A program made the translations under genes and the position numbers. Below are positions 2,543 to 51,384 of a DNA stretch of 51,384 bases, one piece after another (position 1 is the first letter of the stretch; the number at the start of each line of letters is the position of its first letter). Where the stretch lies: the IMG/VR virus record IMGVR_UViG_3300021962_004629, positions 1-51,384 of that record; one strand, 5' to 3'. The notes under the pieces were generated by a model. That model did not search any database. It had not been told where the DNA came from and saw nothing but the letters and a program-made list of their open reading frames with translations. The stretch is from a virus.

Positions 2543-3574
2543 CTACTTCTTCTTCTTTAGAAGAGCAGCATACTTCTTTTGTAGAGCCTTAAGGTCTGCC
2601 TGTGCTTTTGCAAGGTCAGCCTTTGCCTTTGCTAGTTCTGTATCAAATGCAGACTTTGCCATTGCAGCAGTCTTTTGGACAAGATCAACGCTGCCTAGAG
2701 CCTGAGCAAGTTCTGCCTTTGTCTTTGCATGTGCAGTTTTTTCTGCAGAAAGTTCTTCAGCAGCCTTTGCAGCAACTGCCTTAAGTGCTGTTACCTCAGA
2801 AGCAAGGTCAGATACGGTAACAAACTTAACAGTTGACTTCTTAGCAACATCAAGTCCTTCAACATCAGCAATTACTCCTGGAAGAGCAATGCTAATTGCT
2901 GATTGACCAGCAGTTGCTGGAAACTTAACGCTAAACTTTGAAATACCAGTTGTGGCATCAGATGCACCAGCAGCAACCTCAATAGTTGCACCAATAACAG
3001 TAATGGTTGGGGTAACTCCACCAACGATATTACCAAAAACATCTGTAACCTTAACTGTGTTTTCTACAATGCTTGCAGTGCTTACATCAGACTTGACTGT
3101 TGCATCAAGGTTGTATGCTCCACCTGCTGTACCCTTTACATAATATGTAAGAGTGTTTGGACCATTAACAATTGTTACAGTTCCAACCTCAGTAGTTGTT
3201 GTATAAACAAAAAACTCTGCTGTGGTACCAGTACCAACATTAATGGTAAGTGTGTTTGATCCAGACTTTGAAGTTACTGGAACTGTTGCTGTGTGTAGTG
3301 CTGGCACTACAGTAGCCTTTGCTGTTGTAACTACAACAGAAGTTCCTGCAACAATATTTGTGAGAGCAAACTTAACTGCATCTGCTGCCTCAACCTTATT
3401 ATCTGCAGGGACTGTAGCAACCGCTGCACCTGCGATTGTATTGGCATCGTTGTCTACTGCTGCATTAACGGTTACTGCAACTGTAGGAACATTAGCATGT
3501 GCTGGTGCTACTACTGCCATTGAACCCAAAAGTGCTGCAGACACGATAAGGGCGATCTTCTTGAATGATTTCAT
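2543..3574 (-). CDS. Secreted Ig-like protein with C-terminal coiled coil (surface/S-layer-like)
   Basis: This 343-residue protein starts with a textbook Sec signal peptide: KSFKK, a hydrophobic core, and cleavage after APAHA at residue 27. The middle (about 30-250) is rich in T, V, A and S, has no cysteine, and looks like beta-sandwich repeats. Residues of about 252-335 form a heptad-like alanine/lysine/glutamate coiled coil, ending in four lysines. The overall form recalls host envelope or S-layer-like proteins of low-G+C Actinobacteria, but I do not recognise a named family. The promoter is a consensus one, the ribosome site (AAGGAG) is strong, and a terminator follows. Its codon choice resembles the capsid and tail-tube genes, so high expression is likely. 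Possible roles are a surface coat, superinfection exclusion or an adhesin; none is proven. Confidence 0.75.
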   Translation of the reverse strand: MKSFKKIALIVSAALLGSMAVVAPAHANVPTVAVTVNAAVDNDANTIAGAAVATVPADNKVEAADAVKFALTNIVAGTSVVVTTAKATVVPALHTATVPVTSKSGSNTLTINVGTGTTAEFFVYTTTTEVGTVTIVNGPNTLTYYVKGTAGGAYNLDATVKSDVSTASIVENTVKVTDVFGNIVGGVTPTITVIGATIEVAAGASDATTGISKFSVKFPATAGQSAISIALPGVIADVEGLDVAKKSTVKFVTVSDLASEVTALKAVAAKAAEELSAEKTAHAKTKAELAQALGSVDLVQKTAAMAKSAFDTELAKAKADLAKAQADLKALQKKYAALLKKKK

Positions 3575-3621: not shown

Positions 3622-3651
3622 ATTATAGCAGATATTGGAAATATGTGTCAA
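3622..3651 (-). promoter_or_regulatory. Near-perfect sigma-70/SigA promoter of the secreted protein
   Basis: TTGACA (3646-3651) and TATAAT (3622-3627) are spaced 18 bases apart, with an extended TGC. Both hexamers are full consensus, making this the strongest promoter I see in the window. The TGA inside TTGACA is also the stop codon of the upstream gene ending at 3648. Confidence 0.85.
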
Positions 3652-4388
3652 ATTAGGTTTTCTTTGATTAGTTTTAACGTTCTTTTTCTAAGACCTGCTT
3701 TTTCAAATTTATCATATAAATAAGACAAAGGCCTGTTTGGTTCATATTGTTTATATTGTATTGTTGCATACATAATATCTTCTAATTCTTTACACATAAA
3801 AAACTTACGTAAAGTAACATTTTTTTCTGTATTAAACTTTATATACATTAATGGATCACCTTTTTCAGAAACAATATTCTTGTCTGAATTATCATAAAAT
3901 TGTAATGCTGGATTTACTGATCTAAACCATTTTGATATATTAAACTTACCTGGAAAAATATAACCATTTTTACAAAAATTACTATTGTGCATAAAAGGAC
4001 TTGTAACCTGAACATCTATATCATCTTCTGAAAAAAATAAATAACCTAGACTATAGTTAAAATTATAAACATTTTCTACTTGTAAAGATCTAATCTTATA
4101 CAAAGAATCTAAATTTCTATTTCCATAATTTAAAATTTTTTGTTTTTCAACTCTAACATTTAAGTCAATTGGATTTTTCATTATGTATGTATTTTTTGTG
4201 AAATCTAAAAATGCCCTGCATGAAAATACAGAAGCACTATTTGGTGTACTTTTACTTTTATCTTTGCTTAAATCAGGATATAGCGGAACCAAACCACTAT
4301 CTAACATATTTAGTATTGGATTGTAATCAAATATTTCATCAAACAAAATATTGCTAGAGTTGTGTACTGCATAATAGACTGTGGTCAT
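3648..4388 (-). CDS. Conserved-looking hypothetical protein downstream of terminase
   Basis: This 246-residue protein of unknown function overlaps the terminase stop by four bases (ATGA), so its translation is probably coupled. It is rich in aromatic residues, N and K, and has no signal peptide or clear membrane segment. Its most distinctive stretch is CRAFLDFTKNTYIMKNPIDL at about residues 57-76. It ends in a basic helix (RKRTLKLIKENL). I do not recognise a family with confidence, though the general look recalls unannotated proteins of marine and freshwater myoviruses. Being the last gene before the separately promoted accessory units, it could belong either to packaging or to the accessory set. 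Confidence 0.7.
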   Translation of the reverse strand: MTTVYYAVHNSSNILFDEIFDYNPILNMLDSGLVPLYPDLSKDKSKSTPNSASVFSCRAFLDFTKNTYIMKNPIDLNVRVEKQKILNYGNRNLDSLYKIRSLQVENVYNFNYSLGYLFFSEDDIDVQVTSPFMHNSNFCKNGYIFPGKFNISKWFRSVNPALQFYDNSDKNIVSEKGDPLMYIKFNTEKNVTLRKFFMCKELEDIMYATIQYKQYEPNRPLSYLYDKFEKAGLRKRTLKLIKENLI

Positions 4389-10969: not shown

Positions 10970-11286
10970 TAAAATCTTACCCCATGTTTTTCTGGTCTAG
11001 TTTGATTAAACTGTGTCTTCTCTGCAAATGCTTCATCTAAAGAAATATTAAGGTACCCATTCTTTTTCATGCCAGCATATAAATCTAATGTTCTAATAAG
11101 AACATCTGCAATTTCTTTTGCTATTTCTTCCTCACCTTTGCTTTTACGAACCGCTTCCATTACCTCTGTAACTTCAGAAACAATCATCATACATTGCTTA
11201 GCAATAAAAATATCATCAGCCTTTTCTGGCCAAAATCTTTTTGCTTGTGCTGTCTTGTGTAACTCATATGCTAAATCATCAAACAT
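10969..11286 (-). CDS. MazG-like nucleotide pyrophosphohydrolase
   Basis: This 105-residue all-helical protein carries the MazG/dUTPase-type metal motif. ExxE is at E38/E41 in SEVTEVMEA and ExxD at E58/D61 in KEIADVLIR. Such enzymes hydrolyse (d)NTPs to monophosphates and can clean the nucleotide pool or lower alarmone levels in infected cells. The single-domain length is typical of phage copies. It is placed between dnaE and recA with short overlaps. The substrate is not predictable from sequence. Confidence 0.8.
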   Translation of the reverse strand: MFDDLAYELHKTAQAKRFWPEKADDIFIAKQCMMIVSEVTEVMEAVRKSKGEEEIAKEIADVLIRTLDLYAGMKKNGYLNISLDEAFAEKTQFNQTRPEKHGVRF

Positions 11287-14200
11287 TTACTACATCCTCC
11301 ATTATTACTGTTCCATCTTTGGTTTTGCCAAACTCAAACTTATAAACATTTCCTTCTTGAACATTCATGTATGCTTTTGCAAAAGAAGTAGGAAATACAG
11401 TTACTGAGTGTAACTCTCTAGAAGAGTCTGCAATTGTAAGAGATGCCATTTTCTTTCCCGTCTTTGTTACTCTAGGTTTAAATGCTACCACAAAATGCTG
11501 ATCTTCTTTATATGGAATGATTTTGTAATTTAAAAACTTTACCAGTGCATTTTTAGTATCTTTAATTTCATCAACTGGTATATAAGAAATAATCCTGTTG
11601 TCAGAAGCAAGAATTAGATATGTTCTACCACTTTCAATAACTGTTTGCTCTTCATCAAATATTCCAATCGAACCAGTTTTATCTAGCACTTCTACTCTAG
11701 ACCATCCTTTGCCACGTTTAATTGATTTGACCATTCCCATCAAAATAAACGATCCTTTTTCTTCAAACTCTTCTACATCATTAATATAAGCATAATAATG
11801 TTGTGGAATAGAAATATTAAACTCTGGAAGATTTAAATACTCATATAGATTGGTACGAACTTCATTATCATCTGTTGGATTGTCTGTAAAGTTTAATGCA
11901 CCAATACATTTCATTGCTTGTAATGCCCTGCTATTTACTCCGTTACCCTTAGTAAATGTAAACTCTTCTACCTGCTTAAAAGAAGTAAATGGACGTGCAG
12001 CAATATATTTAGTTGCAATATTGTCTGAAATATATTTAATTCCTGTCAAACCAAAACGAATTCCTTTACCTTCAATCTTAAAATCAAGATCTGATTCATT
12101 GATGTGTGGCAACTTAATCGGAATTCCCATACGCTTTGCTTCAATCAAATATTCTGTACGAGCATCTTTATCTTTTTCATTCTTAAGAATTGAATACATA
12201 AACTCAAGAGGATAGTGATACTTAAGCCATGCTGTCCAATAAGACAATGTTGAATATGCTACTGCGTGTGATTTGTTGAACGAGTATCCAGCATGCGCTT
12301 CAAAATCATGCCAGAGATCTTTCGCCTGATTAGGAGAAACAAACCTAGAAGCACCAGCAACGAACTTATCTCTAAAAACATCAAACTCCCTCGCATCCTT
12401 TTTCTTACCAATAATTTTACGAACTTTATCGGCTTCTGCCATAGTCATTCCACCAAGTTCAACACAAGCAAGCATAACTTGCTCTTGATACAAAATACAT
12501 CCGTATGTATCTTCTGTAATTGGTTTCATAACTTGATGAAAATAATTAATGTTTTGCTTTCCATGTTTTCTAGCAACATAATCTTTACCAATTGTATTCA
12601 TAGCACCTGGACGAACAAGAGCATTTGATGCTGCAAGTTCATCTAGATTTTTAACGCCCATCTTTACAAGAAGATTTGTATATGGAGTTGCTTCACACTG
12701 GAATACACCTTTTGTATAACCATCTGAAAGCATCTGATATACATTTTTGTCATTTATGTCAATTGATAAAAGATCAATCTTCTTTCCGTGTCGTTCTTGA
12801 ATAATCTTAATTGTGCTATCTAAAACACTTAATGTTTTTAGACCTAATGCGTCAATCTTGATGAGACCAATCTTTGCAGCCTCTTCCATGTCCACCGCAA
12901 CGACAGGTATCCTATCATCGCTACCAGGAGAAGAACGTGTCTCCATTGGTGCATACTTAAAAATAGGATCTTTACTAGTGACAACACCAGCAGCGTGTAT
13001 ACCAGTACCTCTAATGCGACCCCTAAGTTGTTCACCATATACCTCCACTTCTGGATATTTTTCTCTAAACCAAGCAGATGATTTTGAACTACAGAATTCA
13101 TCCCACGTATCAACGGTTTTTAAAACCTTGTTTACATCTGGCAATGGAATATTTAAAACACGAGAAACATCTCGTACAACGCCTTTATCTTTAAACTGTA
13201 AAAATGTAGCAATAGATGCAACATGTCTATATTGTTTTACTAGATAATCTTTTACTTCATCCCGTCTAGAATCTTGAATGTCTGTATCAATATCAGGGAA
13301 GTCATTACGCTCAGGATTGATAAAACGAAAGAACAAAAGTCCATGTTCAATTGGATCAATATCTGTAATTCCAAGTGTATAACACAATAAAGACCCTGCA
13401 GATGAACCACGACCTGGACCAACCATTATGCCTTCTTTTTTTGCCCAGTTAATCATATTACGGACAACAAGAAAATATGGAGCAAACTTCTTTTCTTTAA
13501 TAATCTCTAACTCTTCATTTAGTCTTAATTCATAAACATCATTGCCTACCCAAGAAGATGTTAGATGCATTTCTTCTAATGCCGTCCACGCAAGTTCTCT
13601 TAACTCTTTATCTGGATTTTTATATTGAACTGGTAAAAGATTTAAACCTTCTTTAATGTCATAGTCTTCAACCTTGTCTGCAATCTCTAGGGTATTAGCG
13701 AACATGTCTTCTCTAAACTTAAGTTCTTTTGTCATTGCAGATTTCATTTCATCATATGACAATAAGTGAATATCAAATCTATTAAAACTCATCATACGAT
13801 CTTTGCCATAAAGATAGTCAAGTCTGTCCATCATGTCTTTATACTTTTGAGACTTATCGTACTTAACATCTTTTTCAAGTTTGGCATGCGTATTAAGAAT
13901 AAGCATCATTTCTTGAATAACTTTTTGGTCTACATCAGAGTGATGGCAATCTGGAGTTACTACAATCTTGACTCCAAACTCATCAGCCAACTGCATTAAA
14001 TTAAGATTAATTTCGGTTGGGTTGTGTGGCATTACCTCAATATAAAAATCATCTTTAAAAGTATTTTTAAACCATTCAATATGCTGCTTTGCTACTGCAA
14101 ACTCCCCTACCTCAATAGCCTTTGCAATAAGGCCACTAAGACAAGCAGACAAAACAATTAATCCATCTTTATACTTTTCTAATACTGCAAAATCAATTCT

Positions 14201-14566
14201 AGGCTTTTTATAAAAACCTTCTGTCCATGCAATCTCATTTAACTTATTCAAGTTTTCTAAACCCTGCTGGTTCTTGGCAAGAATAACAATATGATTGTAA
14301 ATTAAATCTAGTGGAGTTGTTCTCTCTGCTTTATCTCTATGATCAAATCTATCAGCAGCAATATATCCTTCAATACCAAGAATTGGCTTAATACCCGCTG
14401 CCTTTGCAGCACGATACATCTCACGATGTCCAGACAAAGTGCCGTGATCTGTGATAGCAATTGCTGGCATACCCAGACTCACGGCTCTGTCAATATATTC
14501 TTGCGGTGTCGCAACACCATCCATAAGTGAATAGTGTGTGTGAACGTGTAATCCTACGTAGTTCAC
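11279..14566 (-). CDS. dnaE: DNA polymerase III alpha subunit (DnaE type)
   Basis: This 1095-residue replicative polymerase has an N-terminal PHP domain with intact metal ligands (H7, H9, H11 in HVHTHYS, then TDHGTLSG). That may give proofreading or pyrophosphatase activity. The catalytic core has GPGRGSSAGS and the FPDIDTD motif at about 423-429, with its two aspartates. A third aspartate probably lies in KIDALGLKT near 568. The C-terminus holds an OB-fold-like stretch (FILMGMVKSIKRGKGWSRVEV). No separate exonuclease, clamp or clamp loader is seen here, so the host clamp is probably used. It lies three bases after the SSB stop, in the replication operon. Confidence 0.96.
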   Translation of the reverse strand: MNYVGLHVHTHYSLMDGVATPQEYIDRAVSLGMPAIAITDHGTLSGHREMYRAAKAAGIKPILGIEGYIAADRFDHRDKAERTTPLDLIYNHIVILAKNQQGLENLNKLNEIAWTEGFYKKPRIDFAVLEKYKDGLIVLSACLSGLIAKAIEVGEFAVAKQHIEWFKNTFKDDFYIEVMPHNPTEINLNLMQLADEFGVKIVVTPDCHHSDVDQKVIQEMMLILNTHAKLEKDVKYDKSQKYKDMMDRLDYLYGKDRMMSFNRFDIHLLSYDEMKSAMTKELKFREDMFANTLEIADKVEDYDIKEGLNLLPVQYKNPDKELRELAWTALEEMHLTSSWVGNDVYELRLNEELEIIKEKKFAPYFLVVRNMINWAKKEGIMVGPGRGSSAGSLLCYTLGITDIDPIEHGLLFFRFINPERNDFPDIDTDIQDSRRDEVKDYLVKQYRHVASIATFLQFKDKGVVRDVSRVLNIPLPDVNKVLKTVDTWDEFCSSKSSAWFREKYPEVEVYGEQLRGRIRGTGIHAAGVVTSKDPIFKYAPMETRSSPGSDDRIPVVAVDMEEAAKIGLIKIDALGLKTLSVLDSTIKIIQERHGKKIDLLSIDINDKNVYQMLSDGYTKGVFQCEATPYTNLLVKMGVKNLDELAASNALVRPGAMNTIGKDYVARKHGKQNINYFHQVMKPITEDTYGCILYQEQVMLACVELGGMTMAEADKVRKIIGKKKDAREFDVFRDKFVAGASRFVSPNQAKDLWHDFEAHAGYSFNKSHAVAYSTLSYWTAWLKYHYPLEFMYSILKNEKDKDARTEYLIEAKRMGIPIKLPHINESDLDFKIEGKGIRFGLTGIKYISDNIATKYIAARPFTSFKQVEEFTFTKGNGVNSRALQAMKCIGALNFTDNPTDDNEVRTNLYEYLNLPEFNISIPQHYYAYINDVEEFEEKGSFILMGMVKSIKRGKGWSRVEVLDKTGSIGIFDEEQTVIESGRTYLILASDNRIISYIPVDEIKDTKNALVKFLNYKIIPYKEDQHFVVAFKPRVTKTGKKMASLTIADSSRELHSVTVFPTSFAKAYMNVQEGNVYKFEFGKTKDGTVIMEDVVNV

Positions 14567-14569
14567 AAA

Positions 14570-15223
14570 TTACCATTCAATGTTTGTTGATGTCACTGAA
14601 GGTGTGTCAAAACCAAAGAAGAAGGATTCTTGCTCTGGATAAGGGACTTCACGCACTACCTTATCTAGATTATGAAACTCAAATCCATCCCACTTAAATG
14701 GCTCTGTATCTGGTTTGCTTGGAATCAAGGTATAGTTTGTTTCAGTACCTTGTCCATTACGCTTTAACTTCCACTGAATATTTGATACGCTTCCAGTTTC
14801 TAGCGCATATTCACGAATTGTATTGAATGCTGATTGCTTGCTAATGCCTTGTGACCAAACTGCGATGTATGGATCTTCTAGACCATCATCTACTAGCACG
14901 TTGCAATAAAAACGCATACGAGCCTTCCAACCACTCTTTGGTTCCTTGCGAGCCATCTCGCATCCAAAGCAACGACCTTCTGTGTCAATTGTACAAGCAG
15001 CCTTGCGCTTGTAATCCTTTGGGTTTGTGTGTTCTGCAACTACAACTGCTAGACCACGAGATTCACTATAACTTGCAGAGTCTTCATCTAACTCTTCTAC
15101 AAAACGGATCTTTGCTGCCTGTCCATCAGCCAACTTAACCCATCTTACCTTGATTGCACTGCCTTCATATTTTGGTTTGTCGAGCAGGGCGTTGATGTTT
15201 TTTAATCCCTTTACTACGCTCAT
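14570..15223 (-). CDS. Single-stranded DNA-binding protein (gp32-like zinc type)
   Basis: This 217-residue protein looks like the phage SSB family related to T4 gp32. H65, C77, C85 and C88 form a zinc site with nearly the same spacing as gp32 (H64, C77, C87, C90). Aromatic and basic strands around it (ARMRFYCNVLV) could bind single-stranded DNA. The C-terminus is FFFGFDTPSVTSTNIEW, less acidic than in gp32. It has a strong ribosome site (AAAGGAG). Placed just before dnaE, it should coat template DNA in replication and recombination. Confidence 0.82.
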   Translation of the reverse strand: MSVVKGLKNINALLDKPKYEGSAIKVRWVKLADGQAAKIRFVEELDEDSASYSESRGLAVVVAEHTNPKDYKRKAACTIDTEGRCFGCEMARKEPKSGWKARMRFYCNVLVDDGLEDPYIAVWSQGISKQSAFNTIREYALETGSVSNIQWKLKRNGQGTETNYTLIPSKPDTEPFKWDGFEFHNLDKVVREVPYPEQESFFFGFDTPSVTSTNIEW

Positions 15224-15286: not shown

Positions 15287-16720
15287 TTATATTGATTCTA
15301 TCATATCCTTATGATCTTTCCAATTTAAAGTTCTTTTGTTTAACATCTTAACATAGTCATAATATAATTTATCATTATATTTATTAATAACATCTTTATT
15401 TCTTAAACCATTACCATAATATATCTTTATAAAATAATCATTTAAATATGACCTATCTGAATATACAAAGTCACATTTTTTTGGATCTGGTATTTTTAAT
15501 TTCATAGTCTCTAAAAATTCTTGTACTTTTTCTGGCATTTTGTTGTTTGTTGTAAAATTTTTCCAAAAATCATTATTTGTTTTATTGGTAACATAATGAA
15601 TATATATTGCTGAAACAATATCTTTTTGAATATTTTTCAAATCATTGTTAATATTTTTTATAAAACTAATTTTATCAACAAGATATTCGTTAAATTTTAA
15701 AACAATTTTATTTAAAACAAATGTGGTTGTCATTAAAGAACTTGCTTCCATTGGTTCAAAAAAACTTCCAGAAAGTCCAACGGCTATGCAATTACCAATA
15801 CATTGATTTTCATAAAACCCAGTATTATATTTAATACTTCTTGCTGGCTCCCACCCACTATTAATTTTATTTTTTAATTCAATTATTGCATCTTCTTCTG
15901 ATAAATAGTTATTATCAAAATTATATCCAACTCCATATCTTTCGCTTGTTGGAATTTCAAAAGACCATCCATAATCTAATGCTGTGGTTTTAACGTAAGG
16001 TGGTAGTTTATCTTGTAAAGGAACTTGTCCAACAACAGATTGATTAATTGGTAAAGTATCAGAAAGGCTTGTCCAATTTTGTTTATAAAATTTTCCAATA
16101 ACAACCCTGTTAAATCCAGAACAATCAAAAACAAAATCTACATCTAGTTTTGTGTTTGAAAGCAAAATTGTTTTAATATACTCTTTTTCAGATTCAAAAC
16201 CAATAACTAAATCATCTATTATTTTTATTTTTCTTTTAATTGCAACCTGTTTTAAATACTGTGAACACAAAACACTATCTAAATTTACTGCTAAGTTAAT
16301 ATTTTTTTCTATACCAATATCAAAAGGAATTTTATTTTGTAGTGCAAAAATGGCAGATTCATCTATTTGTAACAAAGAGTTATCATTTTTTATAGCGGAA
16401 GATATAAGTTCTAAATAACCTTTTGTATAAAACTCCTCTGGACTTAATATTGGAATCCAAAAATCTTTGTTTTCATTGTTCCAATTAGAAAAAAGATTTC
16501 CTGCTTTAATTGTACAATTTGAGAACCTAATAAATTCTAAAAGATCAATATCTAAGTTTTTAATGGTTCTTAAAAAACTGCCAGTTGTTGATTCTCCAAC
16601 ACCAATGGTTCCAATTGTTGAGTTTTCTATTAAAGTAACGCTATGCTCTGGAAAATGTTTTTCTATAGTTAGTGCTGTTAAATATCCTGCTGTTCCACCA
16701 CCTACTATTCCTATTTTCAA
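15287..16720 (-). CDS. Flavin-dependent tryptophan-halogenase-like protein
   Basis: This 477-residue protein shows the family hallmarks. It has an FAD-binding GGGTAG at 7-12 and GVGEST at 40-45. A lysine matches the catalytic K79 of RebH (K72, in TIKAGNLFSNW). It also has FDCSGF at 198-203 and GSFFEPMEASS, whose E325 matches the RebH glutamate. The GWxWxIP motif reads GWSFEIP (251-257), so the second tryptophan is phenylalanine. Family members use FADH2, oxygen and halide to make HOCl-like oxidant that halogenates an aromatic ring. The substrate here is unknown and no flavin reductase is visible. It starts with TTG overlapping the upstream stop (TTGA), so it is translationally coupled to the AhpD-like gene. 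Related genes occur in cyanophages. Confidence 0.85.
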   Translation of the reverse strand: MKIGIVGGGTAGYLTALTIEKHFPEHSVTLIENSTIGTIGVGESTTGSFLRTIKNLDIDLLEFIRFSNCTIKAGNLFSNWNNENKDFWIPILSPEEFYTKGYLELISSAIKNDNSLLQIDESAIFALQNKIPFDIGIEKNINLAVNLDSVLCSQYLKQVAIKRKIKIIDDLVIGFESEKEYIKTILLSNTKLDVDFVFDCSGFNRVVIGKFYKQNWTSLSDTLPINQSVVGQVPLQDKLPPYVKTTALDYGWSFEIPTSERYGVGYNFDNNYLSEEDAIIELKNKINSGWEPARSIKYNTGFYENQCIGNCIAVGLSGSFFEPMEASSLMTTTFVLNKIVLKFNEYLVDKISFIKNINNDLKNIQKDIVSAIYIHYVTNKTNNDFWKNFTTNNKMPEKVQEFLETMKLKIPDPKKCDFVYSDRSYLNDYFIKIYYGNGLRNKDVINKYNDKLYYDYVKMLNKRTLNWKDHKDMIESI

Positions 16721-17244
16721 GCAAACCTACCATCATAGCCAGCAGAATTAATTTGTTGTGCAGAAGGGGCCCAACTTTCAGAGTTTTCTTGAACACCATG
16801 ACCTTCAATAATTCTATTAAAGAAATTAAATGCAGAACAAACTGCAATGGCATCTTTAACCTGCTCTTGTGTAAATCCAGCCTCATAGCAGTCATCATAT
16901 AGTCTTTTTGTCATACTTGATGGATGCTTTGTTAATTGTTCCACTAAATTAAAAATTGTCGTTAGTCTATTTGGAATTGATTTAATTCCGCTATCTAATA
17001 CATCAATCTCAGCATCTATTGATTCTGCAAAAAGACGATGAGATCCATAACAGAATTTACATCCATTTAAATATGATGTATATGCTGCAATAATTTCTCT
17101 ATCTTGTGGAGACAACGATGAAGGCTCTCGCAATACTTCTTGTGCAAATGAAAGCATCATCATATACCTTTTTTTATTTTCCATAAAAACATCAATAATT
17201 GTTGATTCTTCTTTAATTGAATCAAAAACATTTTTTACACTCAT
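16717..17244 (-). CDS. AhpD-like / carboxymuconolactone-decarboxylase family protein
   Basis: This 175-residue helical protein carries YLNGCKFCYGSH with C62, C65 and H69, the AhpD-type CxxC...H redox site. It fits the 'peroxidase-related' branch of the family. AhpD proteins are thiol oxidoreductases that reduce peroxides through partner proteins; other members are decarboxylases, so the chemistry is unsure. It lies two bases from the primase stop and runs into the halogenase gene by a TTGA overlap. The two genes therefore form a cassette inside the replication operon. A role in peroxide protection beside an oxygen-using halogenase is inference. Confidence 0.82.
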   Translation of the reverse strand: MSVKNVFDSIKEESTIIDVFMENKKRYMMMLSFAQEVLREPSSLSPQDREIIAAYTSYLNGCKFCYGSHRLFAESIDAEIDVLDSGIKSIPNRLTTIFNLVEQLTKHPSSMTKRLYDDCYEAGFTQEQVKDAIAVCSAFNFFNRIIEGHGVQENSESWAPSAQQINSAGYDGRFA

Positions 17245-17246
17245 AA

Positions 17247-18191
17247 TTACCTCAACATTTCTAGTATGGACTTTTCTATTGAATTATCTAACTTAATTAT
17301 ATCAGAGTCTTGCATATCTCCGATATCTTTATACTTAGCGTCTAATTGGATTATTGATACCCTTGATTTTAATTTATCTGTCATCTTTTTAGACATTGAC
17401 TTTCCTGCTTCATCATTATCTGATATCAAACATATTTCATTAAAATATTTTTCTAGTAACTCTATTTGATTTTTTGAAACATTAGCACCAAGAGTGGCAA
17501 CCGCTGGCATTCCAACTTGATCTAATCTTATTGCATCGAATGATGACTCAACAACATAAATTTTATTAGATTGCTTAACTCTATGCAAATTAAAAAGTAT
17601 TTTGCTCTTTGGCAAACCTGGAGTATTTTTAAACTCTTTGCCCTCTATAGTTCTTGCTACAAATCCTATAGTCATGCCGTCTGGAGATTGAACTGGTATT
17701 GTTACCATATCCTGTTTATCAGAATATCCAAGAGCAAACTTTTCAATAGACATTTTTGTAATCTTTCTACCTTCAAAATACCGTAATGCTCGTGGAGATT
17801 CTAATGCCTGATTGTTTAATCTTTTAATCAATAACTCATCATATTGAATAAATTCTTTAGGCTTGTATAATTTTTTGTTTACAAGATCTTCAATATTGGT
17901 TTCTTTTTCTTTGCTTTTAATAAACCGAATGGACTCAAAATAAGATCGTCCAGTCATCTTCATAATAAGTTCTTGAAGTTCTGCAGTTTGTTGACAACTA
18001 AAACAAAAGAACAATCCACTTTCTTTAGACACTTCTCCTGCTGGAGTTCTTGTATTATTATGATATGGACAAAATATAATGAAGTCTGAACCGACTTCTG
18101 ATTCTATAGTTACGCCTGACCCGATAAGGACTCTTTTAATCTGGTCTTCTGTATATGTATTGGTCTGTACCCGTCTACTGCGATAATCCAT
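17247..18191 (-). CDS. DnaG-type primase
   Basis: This 314-residue primase lays down RNA primers for DnaE. The N-terminal zinc ribbon uses C41, H44, C63 and C66 (FCPYHN ... FFCFSC). The TOPRIM core includes E215 in YVVESSFDA and D258/D260 in LISDNDEAG. It lacks the long helicase-interaction tail of bacterial DnaG, as is usual for phage forms. The start overlaps the preceding small gene by 82 bases in another frame. The upstream ribosome site is only moderate (GAAGAAAGAAG), so a later start cannot be fully excluded, but the zinc ribbon needs most of this N-terminus. Confidence 0.9.
   Translation of the reverse strand: MDYRSRRVQTNTYTEDQIKRVLIGSGVTIESEVGSDFIIFCPYHNNTRTPAGEVSKESGLFFCFSCQQTAELQELIMKMTGRSYFESIRFIKSKEKETNIEDLVNKKLYKPKEFIQYDELLIKRLNNQALESPRALRYFEGRKITKMSIEKFALGYSDKQDMVTIPVQSPDGMTIGFVARTIEGKEFKNTPGLPKSKILFNLHRVKQSNKIYVVESSFDAIRLDQVGMPAVATLGANVSKNQIELLEKYFNEICLISDNDEAGKSMSKKMTDKLKSRVSIIQLDAKYKDIGDMQDSDIIKLDNSIEKSILEMLR
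17296..17304 (-). promoter_or_regulatory. Putative promoter for the AhpD-halogenase cassette
   Basis: TGATATAAT, the same extended -10 as at two structural-gene promoters here, lies in the 3' end of the primase gene about 50 bases before the AhpD-like start. The following leader has a GAGGT ribosome site. It lies inside coding DNA, so chance is possible. Confidence 0.42.
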
Positions 18192-18433
18192 TGTATCTTC
18201 TTTCTTCCCACGTACATTCCATATGCTGTAAGACCAAATTCAAAACAATTCTTGTCACTATCATATTTTAGCGTAAAGTCTGGCTCAATGTCAATTCTTG
18301 GTGCATACCCAGTTTCCCGCATCTGGATGACCAACAATCTAAGATATTCTTCCTTAAGTCTAGGTATATGAGATTCATCCTTGATTACGCCATCAAGATA
18401 AAAGTTTTTGATCGGTTTGTGATGAAGTGACAC
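18110..18433 (-). CDS. Hypothetical protein between helicase and primase
   Basis: This 107-residue protein starts with GTG at 18433. There is no ribosome site, but a TATAAT lies just upstream and a leaderless GTG is possible. The middle is beta-rich (FTLKYDSDKNCFEFGLTAYG) and the N-terminal helix is basic. The last 27 codons overlap the primase start in another frame. It could be a primase-helicase linker protein, which is only positional reasoning. Confidence 0.6.
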   Translation of the reverse strand: MSLHHKPIKNFYLDGVIKDESHIPRLKEEYLRLLVIQMRETGYAPRIDIEPDFTLKYDSDKNCFEFGLTAYGMYVGRKKIQWIIAVDGYRPIHIQKTRLKESLSGQA

Positions 18434-18439
18434 ATTATA

Positions 18440-19666
18440 TTATAACGCCTTATCTTCGTAGTCTTTATAACGATAGTAACCTTTATCAAAGTCTACCTGC
18501 ACCAAAAACTCGCCCATAAAACCATTACGATTCTTTCTAAAGGCACACTCAATGATGTCCGAGTTAGTTGCCCTACCAAGAGCCATGACCCAGTCGGCAT
18601 CATAAGCAATCTGTCTAGACCATGCTGTTTGTCCAAGTGTTGGTACGCTGCTTAAATCATTGACATCGTCTGGGGTAGCAGAAGAAATAGCAATAATTGG
18701 AACCTCTTCTGAGATAGCCATAAGTTTAAGTTCACGAGATAAATTCTTCATTCTTACAGTCTCATTATCAGACTTTTGGTTTGGTGTCATAAGTTGTAGG
18801 TAGTCTACAATAACAAAATCTGGTTTGTATTGGTCTATCTTTCCACGTAGAACAGATGGGCTAATCTCTCCACCTTGATCGTTTGAGATAATATGGAATG
18901 GATTCTTTCCTTCAAGGTGGCGTTTGTGCCACTCTTTTAATGTATCTATTTCAATGTTACCTTGACTAATTTTACGATGTGACCAAAGCCCTTCACCCAT
19001 AATTGTAAATACACGATTACGAACTTCTGTTTCAGACATTTCAAGACTAATAATCAATGGTGTCTTGCCTTGCTTCCAAGCCTGTACTGCAAAGTAAAGC
19101 GCAAGCCATGATTTACCAATTCCTGGATAAGCAAGAAATACTCCTAATTGGCCAGCAGTAATTCCAGAAGGCAAATAGTTGTCAAATCCTGGCAGTCCAG
19201 TTTTAATTCCTACATTACCTGCTGCTTCCATCTTTTTAAGATGATCGAAATATGCAATTGCAGAATCTAAATCAATAACATCAATATCACGAACAGCAGA
19301 TGTATTCTTTTTTAACTCTGAAGTTTTTGTAATTAGATTATTAAGCGCCTCTGAACCCTTATCATTTTGTACATCTGTTGCAGCAGAACGAAGAATATCT
19401 TTAAGACTATCATTAAGATACTCATGTTGTAATTCTTCAAGGTGATGCTTTGTTGCACCAACATCTTCAATTAATTCAAAGTCTCTAAATTTTTCTACAA
19501 CCAAAGATGTAGGTGGCACAGAACTGTTATGTTCAAAATAATTTCTTACAAATGTCCAAATATCAGAGTGTGTACGCAAAAGATTGTCTATGTTTGCTTG
19601 AAGCAAAACATGGATCTGTTTATCTTTTAATACAGCGTTAATTACTTTTGCCTCTGAATTATTCAC
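18440..19666 (-). CDS. dnaB: Replicative DNA helicase (DnaB family)
   Basis: This 408-residue RecA-fold hexameric helicase unwinds DNA at the fork. The N-terminal region is helical. The ATPase has AYPGIGKS at 179-186 (Walker A), ISLEMSETE (206-214), and PDFVIVDYLQ at 283-292 (Walker B plus the DnaB-type YLQ). Conserved Q and R sensor segments follow near the end. It overlaps the next gene upstream by eight bases. The length is a little under bacterial DnaB because the N-terminal domain is short. Confidence 0.94.
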   Translation of the reverse strand: MNNSEAKVINAVLKDKQIHVLLQANIDNLLRTHSDIWTFVRNYFEHNSSVPPTSLVVEKFRDFELIEDVGATKHHLEELQHEYLNDSLKDILRSAATDVQNDKGSEALNNLITKTSELKKNTSAVRDIDVIDLDSAIAYFDHLKKMEAAGNVGIKTGLPGFDNYLPSGITAGQLGVFLAYPGIGKSWLALYFAVQAWKQGKTPLIISLEMSETEVRNRVFTIMGEGLWSHRKISQGNIEIDTLKEWHKRHLEGKNPFHIISNDQGGEISPSVLRGKIDQYKPDFVIVDYLQLMTPNQKSDNETVRMKNLSRELKLMAISEEVPIIAISSATPDDVNDLSSVPTLGQTAWSRQIAYDADWVMALGRATNSDIIECAFRKNRNGFMGEFLVQVDFDKGYYRYKDYEDKAL

Positions 19667-49661: not shown

Positions 49662-49670
49662 ATTATATCA
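49662..49670 (-). promoter_or_regulatory. Extended -10 promoter of the LamG protein
   Basis: TGATATAAT on the minus strand. Its TGA is the stop codon of the reductase gene. The ATG follows after nine bases. Confidence 0.55.
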
Positions 49671-51384
49671 GGAACCAGTTTTAATTTCACAATAATCTGT
49701 AGTACAGTACATTTCTCCAACAGAGTCTAGGTTTTGCACCCCGTCATAAATTGCTGACCAATCAATCTTGGCAATTTTACCAACGTAGTCATCATATTCT
49801 TGTTGAGTAATTTGTTGATATGGCTGTTGTGGATAGACCATATTGCCCATCGGAAGGAACGACACAGCCTTTAACTGACCTTCATACATGTGCAACGCTG
49901 GAGCAATATGCTTTGTTTCTGATTCTTTGTCAAACGACAATGTTACAGAAACTCCATTGTCAGACCAATACTTTTGAGTTGTTGCTGCAAGACCAATCTT
50001 TTCAAACAAAGTTACATCTTTTTCTGATCTGGGATGTCCTGAATGAACTGGGAAGTAAACAACTGTAGTATTAGCAGAAACTAAATCATCTTCCATCTTA
50101 TATCCCGCTGCCTTAAACAAGTGCAACATTGGATCTTGATCACTAAATCTAATTGCACGAAGGAAGTATTCTCCACCCACTGGCCAGTGAACTCCTGGAG
50201 AAGCGCCAGAAAGTAGTGAAACAGAACCAGATGGCTTGACTGTAGTTACACGAATTGATTCACGAACACATAGCCACTCTGAATATTGTTTATCGTATTT
50301 ACGAATTGTTTGATATCCTTCATCCATCCAATCACGAGTTGCTGGAAGACCATGTGTATCTGCAAATGATGCAATACCAGTAAGCGATGTTCCAATACGG
50401 CGATTGCGTTGCATAATTCCATTTGTAATCTGCCAGTGTGTAGGAACAAGTGTTACTGTTTTACCATAAAGATATGCAAACTTTAATGTACGCAAAAAGT
50501 CTTCTTTGCTATCATGTCGATTAAGGTGAACCTCTACAAGAGTACAAAGTTCATAGGACTCTAGCGGTTGTTCTGCACATGGGTTAAAGCCCATTACACG
50601 ATAGTCTTTTCCATCTGCTGGATCAGCAAGACGACCGTAGTTTCTAGCAACGTCTAGCCAAATAAATCCTGGCTCGCCATTATTCGAAATAAGATCAACA
50701 TAGTCTTCATATTTTGTTCCAACTGTAGCAGAAATAGAATTATTGCTCATCCAGGCCCACCCTGGATTTTCTGCATCAAATGAATTTCTTTCTGGAAATA
50801 CTTCTGCATTTTTTAAATTAATAAAATCGTTATCTCCAGCAGAACCTAATGCCAATGTTGCAGAACGTCTAACATTTCCAGAAACAACACAAGTTCCAAT
50901 TAGGTTTACAATATCAACAATAGCCCTTGCATCAAGGCTCTCTCCGACCCTAGAACCGATTACTTTACGAAGCCTGTTGTGAAGGTCGATCAGTGGCTGT
51001 GGACCGCTTGAAACGCCTCCAAAGCCCTTAATTGGTGCTCCTGCAGGACGTATCAAAGAATAGTCAAACTCTTGAATGTTTTGATTTGGTCTAAGCATTG
51101 AATTAAGCAACATTCTTGTTGCCTCTACCCAGCCTTCACGAGTATCTGGAATTTGATAAGTGACAATAGGCTCAGTTGGTGCATAAATTGGCATCTCTTT
51201 GTCTTGTCCAACAGTATCAAAACCTACTCCAACACCAAGCATTAAGGCATCCATAACCCAAGCAAATAAAGCACCTGGATCATTTCTATCAATATCACGG
51301 GTTGATACCATTGCACAATTTTGAAGGGCAGCAGAATTACGCTTCTCCATAGTCATTGGGGTACCAAATGCCCACAGACCTCTT
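49668..51384 (-). CDS. nrdJ: Ribonucleotide reductase, class II monomeric (5' end cut)
   Basis: The frame is open to the right window edge, so the N-terminus is missing. It reads into RGLWAFGTP and then LQNCAMVST. The active site is the class II monomeric type. In NPCAEQPLESYELC the first cysteine is the thiyl-radical residue, followed by the glutamate two residues on and a second cysteine 11 residues after the first. This spacing equals C408/E410/C419 of the Lactobacillus leichmannii enzyme. The C-terminal YCTTDYC pair (C-x4-C) is the usual re-reducing pair. It makes dNTPs from NTPs using adenosylcobalamin, so the host must supply B12. It should feed the DnaE polymerase. Confidence 0.92.
   Translation of the reverse strand, partial: RGLWAFGTPMTMEKRNSAALQNCAMVSTRDIDRNDPGALFAWVMDALMLGVGVGFDTVGQDKEMPIYAPTEPIVTYQIPDTREGWVEATRMLLNSMLRPNQNIQEFDYSLIRPAGAPIKGFGGVSSGPQPLIDLHNRLRKVIGSRVGESLDARAIVDIVNLIGTCVVSGNVRRSATLALGSAGDNDFINLKNAEVFPERNSFDAENPGWAWMSNNSISATVGTKYEDYVDLISNNGEPGFIWLDVARNYGRLADPADGKDYRVMGFNPCAEQPLESYELCTLVEVHLNRHDSKEDFLRTLKFAYLYGKTVTLVPTHWQITNGIMQRNRRIGTSLTGIASFADTHGLPATRDWMDEGYQTIRKYDKQYSEWLCVRESIRVTTVKPSGSVSLLSGASPGVHWPVGGEYFLRAIRFSDQDPMLHLFKAAGYKMEDDLVSANTTVVYFPVHSGHPRSEKDVTLFEKIGLAATTQKYWSDNGVSVTLSFDKESETKHIAPALHMYEGQLKAVSFLPMGNMVYPQQPYQQITQQEYDDYVGKIAKIDWSAIYDGVQNLDSVGEMYCTTDYCEIKTGS

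Follow-up and report, generated by a model that had tools for sequence, protein, structure and literature searches.

The question raised by this locus is why a phage should carry, within its replication operon, genes for a flavin-dependent halogenase (FDH) and an AhpD-like protein, and whether these genes work together or only share an insertion site. The window, which is the whole 51,384-nucleotide stretch of IMG/VR virus record IMGVR_UViG_3300021962_004629 that was analyzed, has a minus-strand series of genes in the order DnaB helicase, small ORF, primase, AhpD-like protein (AhpD), halogenase (HAL), single-strand DNA-binding protein (SSB), DNA polymerase III alpha subunit (DnaE), MazG-like protein, and RecA. 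The DnaB-like helicase (18440..19666), which is 77 to 98% identical in relatives, and DnaE (11279..14566) are the conserved flanks used in comparisons, and the small ORF is at 18110..18433. The cargo site has the DnaG-type primase (17247..18191) as its upstream edge and SSB (14570..15223; PHROG 9721, E 7e-40) as its downstream edge, and the pair is located between them, 2 bp from the end of primase and 63 bp from SSB, just where the initial annotation had placed it.

WhiB genes, which are reported to be confined to Actinobacteria and their phages (PMC10611076), are present in several of the larger relatives (G017, G018, G019, and others) and suggest actinobacterial hosts; there are none in the window. 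The window phage probably infects freshwater Actinobacteria, with the freshwater habitat suggested by the kinds of relatives it has and by lake phage DSL-LC01. Relatives extend to 108 to 113 kb, so that the window probably covers only part of a genome, maybe about half, and genes missing from it therefore prove little.

Other minus-strand genes in the window code for a phage HSP20 small heat shock protein (1195-1611), with similar-looking ORFs in L142 and one other fetched locus; a TauD/TfdA-type 2OG dioxygenase (1691-2521; 27% GC) without a close relative in the fetched loci; an Ala-rich, secreted-looking protein (2543-3574) with a signal-peptide-like start, a coiled C terminus, and no family match; and, at the window end (49668-51356), a protein matching B12-dependent (class II) ribonucleotide reductases. 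A 246-aa protein of an unnamed family (3648-4388; 25% GC) adjoins halogenases in L103, L177, L212, and L288; it was rejected as an obligate member of the module, being present in the halogenase-free G020 and missing from many phages that have the module.

The halogenase and its AhpD-like neighbor

HAL (15287..16720, minus strand) is a 477-aa protein with a TTG start, and its gene is AT-rich, with a GC content of 25.5% versus 34.5% for the genome. It matches PF04820 in a Pfam profile search (E 8.4e-74, 249.5 bits, cutoff 21), PHROG 2928 in a PHROG search, and 30 halogenase-family sequences from PDB, VirX1 among them. The frame opens straight at the Rossmann strand (MKIGIVGGG), with the GxGxxG flavin motif at residues 7 to 12, and Lys72 and Glu325, the two residues to which the initial annotation drew attention, do align with the FDH catalytic pair. 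Among 165 related viral halogenase ORFs, the lysine position is kept in 161 of the 163 scored and the glutamate position in 155 of the 162 scored. The WxWxIP position reads WSFEIP (residues 252 to 257), and the F that replaces the second W is also present in 23 of 163 related viral halogenases; this motif varies or is missing in certain FDHs (PMC8407142). Glu325 lies within FFEPMEASS (residues 320 to 328), which fits the FX[DE]PX[EFL] motif (PMC8407142) and fits Fx.Px.Sx.G only as an A/S variant. An AlphaFold (AF2) model of HAL (mean pLDDT, 88.8) superposes on PyrH with a TM of 0.89, so the structural modeling proposed earlier returns an FDH fold. HAL is thus, by sequence and fold, a member of the FDH family (variant A, PF04820) with a predicted halogenating activity.

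The substrate is a separate matter. HAL has neither the group A nor the group B pattern of the Trp4 substrate motif of free-tryptophan halogenases (PMC8269204), and the family name "tryptophan halogenase" is therefore not to be taken as its substrate; tryptophan, a substrate considered in the initial annotation, loses ground accordingly.

AhpD (16717..17244, minus strand; 175 aa) matches the CMD domain PF02627 (E 7.5e-9, 35.9 bits, gathering cutoff 23) and the AhpD structure 6k40 (E 7.8e-8), but it scores 66.7 bits with TIGR01926, under the cutoff of 81.8, and so is assigned only to the broader CMD family. It shares with AhpD/CMD peroxidase-related proteins (6k40, 3c1l, and TIGR01926) both sequence kinship and the catalytic pattern E-x11-CxxCxxxH, here E50, C62, C65, and H69, and this pattern is invariant in the phage copies, down to 45% identity. 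AhpD differs from those proteins in falling below the TIGR01926 cutoff and in belonging to what is, as judged by sequence, a phage subfamily. A search of the phage record collection gives no match to it, and no halogenase is beside its bacterial relatives (30 to 38% identity) at six loci.

The two genes overlap by TTGA at 16717..16720, as first described: the TTG start of HAL lies over the TGA stop of AhpD, and the tetranucleotide comprises the last T of the final AhpD codon (GCT) plus the stop. This same overlap is kept in L003, L004, and L027, and in other AhpD-HAL pairs an overlap is made by different start codons.

Contents of the primase-SSB junction

The records compared are fragments from metagenomes. 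Viral contigs scanned with the primase yield 80 loci, 73 of which show both ends of the primase-SSB junction. At 52 of these 73 junctions there is no HAL, no AhpD, and no copy of a small membrane protein (MP) described below, and the existence of such empty relatives agrees with the earlier view of the pair as an insertion in the replication operon; 12 junctions contain AhpD and HAL, 8 contain MP and HAL, and 1 contains MP only. A partner, either AhpD or MP, is next to HAL at all 20 halogenase-bearing junctions, and HAL is alone at none (Fisher 5e-17, uncorrected for kinship). The junction is therefore seen empty, MP-only, or paired, and AhpD-MP without a local HAL is found in L272, L273, and L295. 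Against a fixed pairing, the G074 record has HAL, with MP missing from the record and neither AhpD nor MP at the junction.

MP is a highly conserved 97-aa predicted three-helix membrane protein of an unnamed family (e.g., L025:8942-9232 and L103:6001-6291), present at about 380 viral loci, where it either adjoins a halogenase or lies in the primase-SSB junction. It is modeled with moderate confidence (pLDDT, 73.6) as a short N-terminal helix followed by three long helices, and it is 62 to 82% identical among phages with widely different halogenases. It has no match in Pfam, in PDB by profile search, or in the collection of phage records, and a fold search gives insignificant matches only, the best being SemiSWEET (E 0.8). 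In one locus (L288:889-2349) an open frame joins an internally deleted halogenase to MP; this possible fusion was left out as evidence because an internal stretch of the halogenase is missing, and the frame may have arisen when tandem copies were assembled into a chimera.

The halogenases at this site are exchanged far more readily than their surroundings. Flanking genes are up to 95 to 99% identical where HAL is only 29 to 61% identical (L002, L025, and L026), and in the clade of the window an AhpD of 84 to 87% identity stands beside three types of HAL (59%, 31%, and 29% identical); because HAL is divergent while AhpD and the flanks stay similar, HAL is swapped as a cassette. In a quick tree without bootstraps most of the halogenases found at the junction group in a single clade, and across the junction halogenases the partner switches between AhpD and MP at least four times. 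The halogenase of L018 is in a different deep clade of this tree, together with those of L274, L279, and L290, in which AhpD is on the opposite strand, and since AhpD thus accompanies halogenases of distinct deep clades, the AhpD-halogenase pairing arose more than once. The AhpD-paired halogenase homologue of L018 (5777-7318), like that of L019, has Arg in place of the catalytic Lys and Thr in place of Glu, and this AhpD-linked type may be a non-halogenating derivative.

Partners beyond the junction and in known phages

The initial annotation had suggested searching related phages for the same pair, and the genes prove to be associated across phages and contexts, with separation without association not seen. 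This AhpD is found at 39 viral loci, and at 36 of them the fetched DNA also includes HAL, MP, or both; the exceptions are L278, L291, and L292, and in the records of the last two HAL is found elsewhere. Whole-record searches locate HAL in all 15 tested AhpD-bearing records of at least 35 kb, the records without it all being below 34 kb, and in the large AhpD-MP records G066 and G067 HAL is located away from the two partners. AhpD accompanies halogenases in unrelated contexts (L212, L285-L287, L274, L279, L289, and L290), MP directly adjoins HAL in many unrelated loci, mostly in the order HAL-MP, and a tandem HAL-MP-AhpD arrangement is present in L212 and L285-L287; both partners also adjoin HAL outside the replication operon. 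HAL is also present in the tested MP-bearing records of at least 50 kb, at times distantly. Nevertheless, of the 80 loci that the halogenase profile retrieves, 47 have neither partner nearby, and MP is missing from the whole record in 9 of 13 large halogenase-profile records; with so many viral HALs lacking a nearby AhpD or MP, phage halogenases do not in general require a partner. Several halogenase genes occur per viral locus in L189, L206, L208, L221, L223, L235, and L250, and runs of small sulfotransferase-like genes are upstream of halogenase-MP pairs in L005, L175, L187, and L190.

Viral halogenases have been known since cyanophage genomes; many cyanophages have one, and 66 phage records match HAL. 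HAL falls in PHROG 2928 along with the tryptophan halogenases of cyanophages and of Pelagibacter phage HTVC008M, and it is 25 to 31% identical to its better matches in these phages, but their gene neighborhoods are unlike that of the window, and AhpD is unmatched in phage records. No AhpD or MP is near six phage halogenases fetched from these records. The tryptophan halogenases PyrH, SttH, PrnA, and RebH have the fold, FAD motif, and catalytic Lys and Glu in common with HAL, which differs in lacking the Trp4 motif (PMC8269204). VirX1 of cyanophage Syn10 (PDB 6qgm), a phage FDH like HAL (E 1e-36; fold TMq, 0.80), is a characterized lysine-dependent enzyme that acts on many aromatics (PMC8407142); it is 22% identical to HAL and comes from a marine cyanophage, and at distances of up to 4 kb the Syn10 halogenase genes have no neighbor homologous to AhpD or MP. 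Actinomycetia phage DSL-LC01, a lake phage, is also halogenase bearing (PMC10611076), but its enzyme is 21% identical to HAL and has collagen-repeat genes among its neighbors and no AhpD or MP. The literature searched names no natural substrate for viral halogenases, and a search for a phage halogenase paired with AhpD found none. The earlier remark that such a system is poorly described thus applies not to phage halogenases, which are known (PMC8407142), but to the AhpD/MP-halogenase module and its primase-SSB site, both of which appear to be undescribed.

Proposed function and alternatives

FDHs use FADH2, O2, and halide to form HOX, which travels through a tunnel to a lysine from which an aromatic is halogenated, and PrnA works with host reductases (PMC8407142). 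We consider it fairly probable that the locus is a mobile halogenation module of freshwater actinobacteriophages, using host FADH2 and acting on some aromatic compound that is not free tryptophan, with AhpD or MP as a working partner. The initial annotation had advised looking for a flavin reductase elsewhere in the genome, but no PF01613 protein is present in the window or 15 relatives (16 records), and so we infer that a host flavin reductase supplies the FADH2 bound by HAL. With O2 and halide, HAL would then form HOX and hand it to Lys72, which together with Glu325 would yield a halogenated aromatic, probably not free tryptophan. AhpD, probably translated from the same message, would be a dedicated CxxC thiol enzyme whose likeliest role is to reduce peroxide or hypohalous by-products formed by HAL, or else to act on the HAL substrate, and MP, in the neighboring place of AhpD, would support HAL in another mode, such as membrane placement. 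The benefit would be a modified host or virion molecule differing between strains, a strain-varying target being suggested by a rate of halogenase exchange much above that of the adjoining genes.

Of the other explanations, a shared cargo site at which HAL, AhpD, and MP meet by recombination as independent genes, without cooperating, is unlikely: it accounts for a true hot spot with empty, MP-only, and paired states, for the AT-richness of HAL, and for the AhpD-MP junctions without a local HAL, but not for the absence of lone HAL from the 20 halogenase-bearing junctions, the adjacency of both partners to HAL outside the replication operon, the HAL carried elsewhere in G066 and G067, or the recurrence of gene overlaps with different halogenases. 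We regard as similarly improbable that HAL is a halogenase-derived flavin monooxygenase or oxidase performing an oxidation jointly with AhpD; the L018 and L019 proteins lack both catalytic residues yet keep their AhpD pairing, and HAL itself has the WxWxIP substitution and the A/S variant, but related viral halogenases overwhelmingly keep the catalytic Lys and Glu, that substitution recurs among them, and HAL fits FX[DE]PX[EFL] (PMC8407142).

Modification of virion proteins or of the virion surface, with the halogenase acting on tail fibers or other phage proteins, would suit DSL-LC01, in which the halogenase gene is downstream of collagen-repeat genes and adjoins a glycosyltransferase gene, and other halogenase loci that adjoin tail-type genes, 2OG oxygenases, and sulfotransferases. 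The window pair, however, is in the replication operon, away from tail genes, and it is not obvious what AhpD would do in modifying proteins, making this quite improbable here. What recommends the nucleotide or base modification also raised in the initial annotation, by which the pair would halogenate or oxidize a base for phage DNA, is that the primase-SSB junction is its place both in the window and in relatives, but nothing else points there and we think it very improbable: the same genes occur outside replication operons, the site may hold MP only and is empty in most relatives, and no base-modification companion genes are recognized among the window ORFs scanned. HAL, AhpD, MP, and two other window proteins have no match to PADLOC defense families.

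Returning to a halogenation module with working partners, we tentatively extend it, as a serious possibility, to a phage halogenation system in which a fast-exchanged FDH, a constant AhpD and/or MP, and a hot spot in the replication genes serve varying targets in hosts or competitors. The conserved partner is a handle for studying viral halogenase function, close relatives with and without the cassette are natural comparison pairs, and the module is a source of divergent halogenases for biocatalysis. Phages that are near-identical in other respects have swapped halogenases, which suggests a substrate or target that differs from strain to strain and has a bearing on phage fitness.
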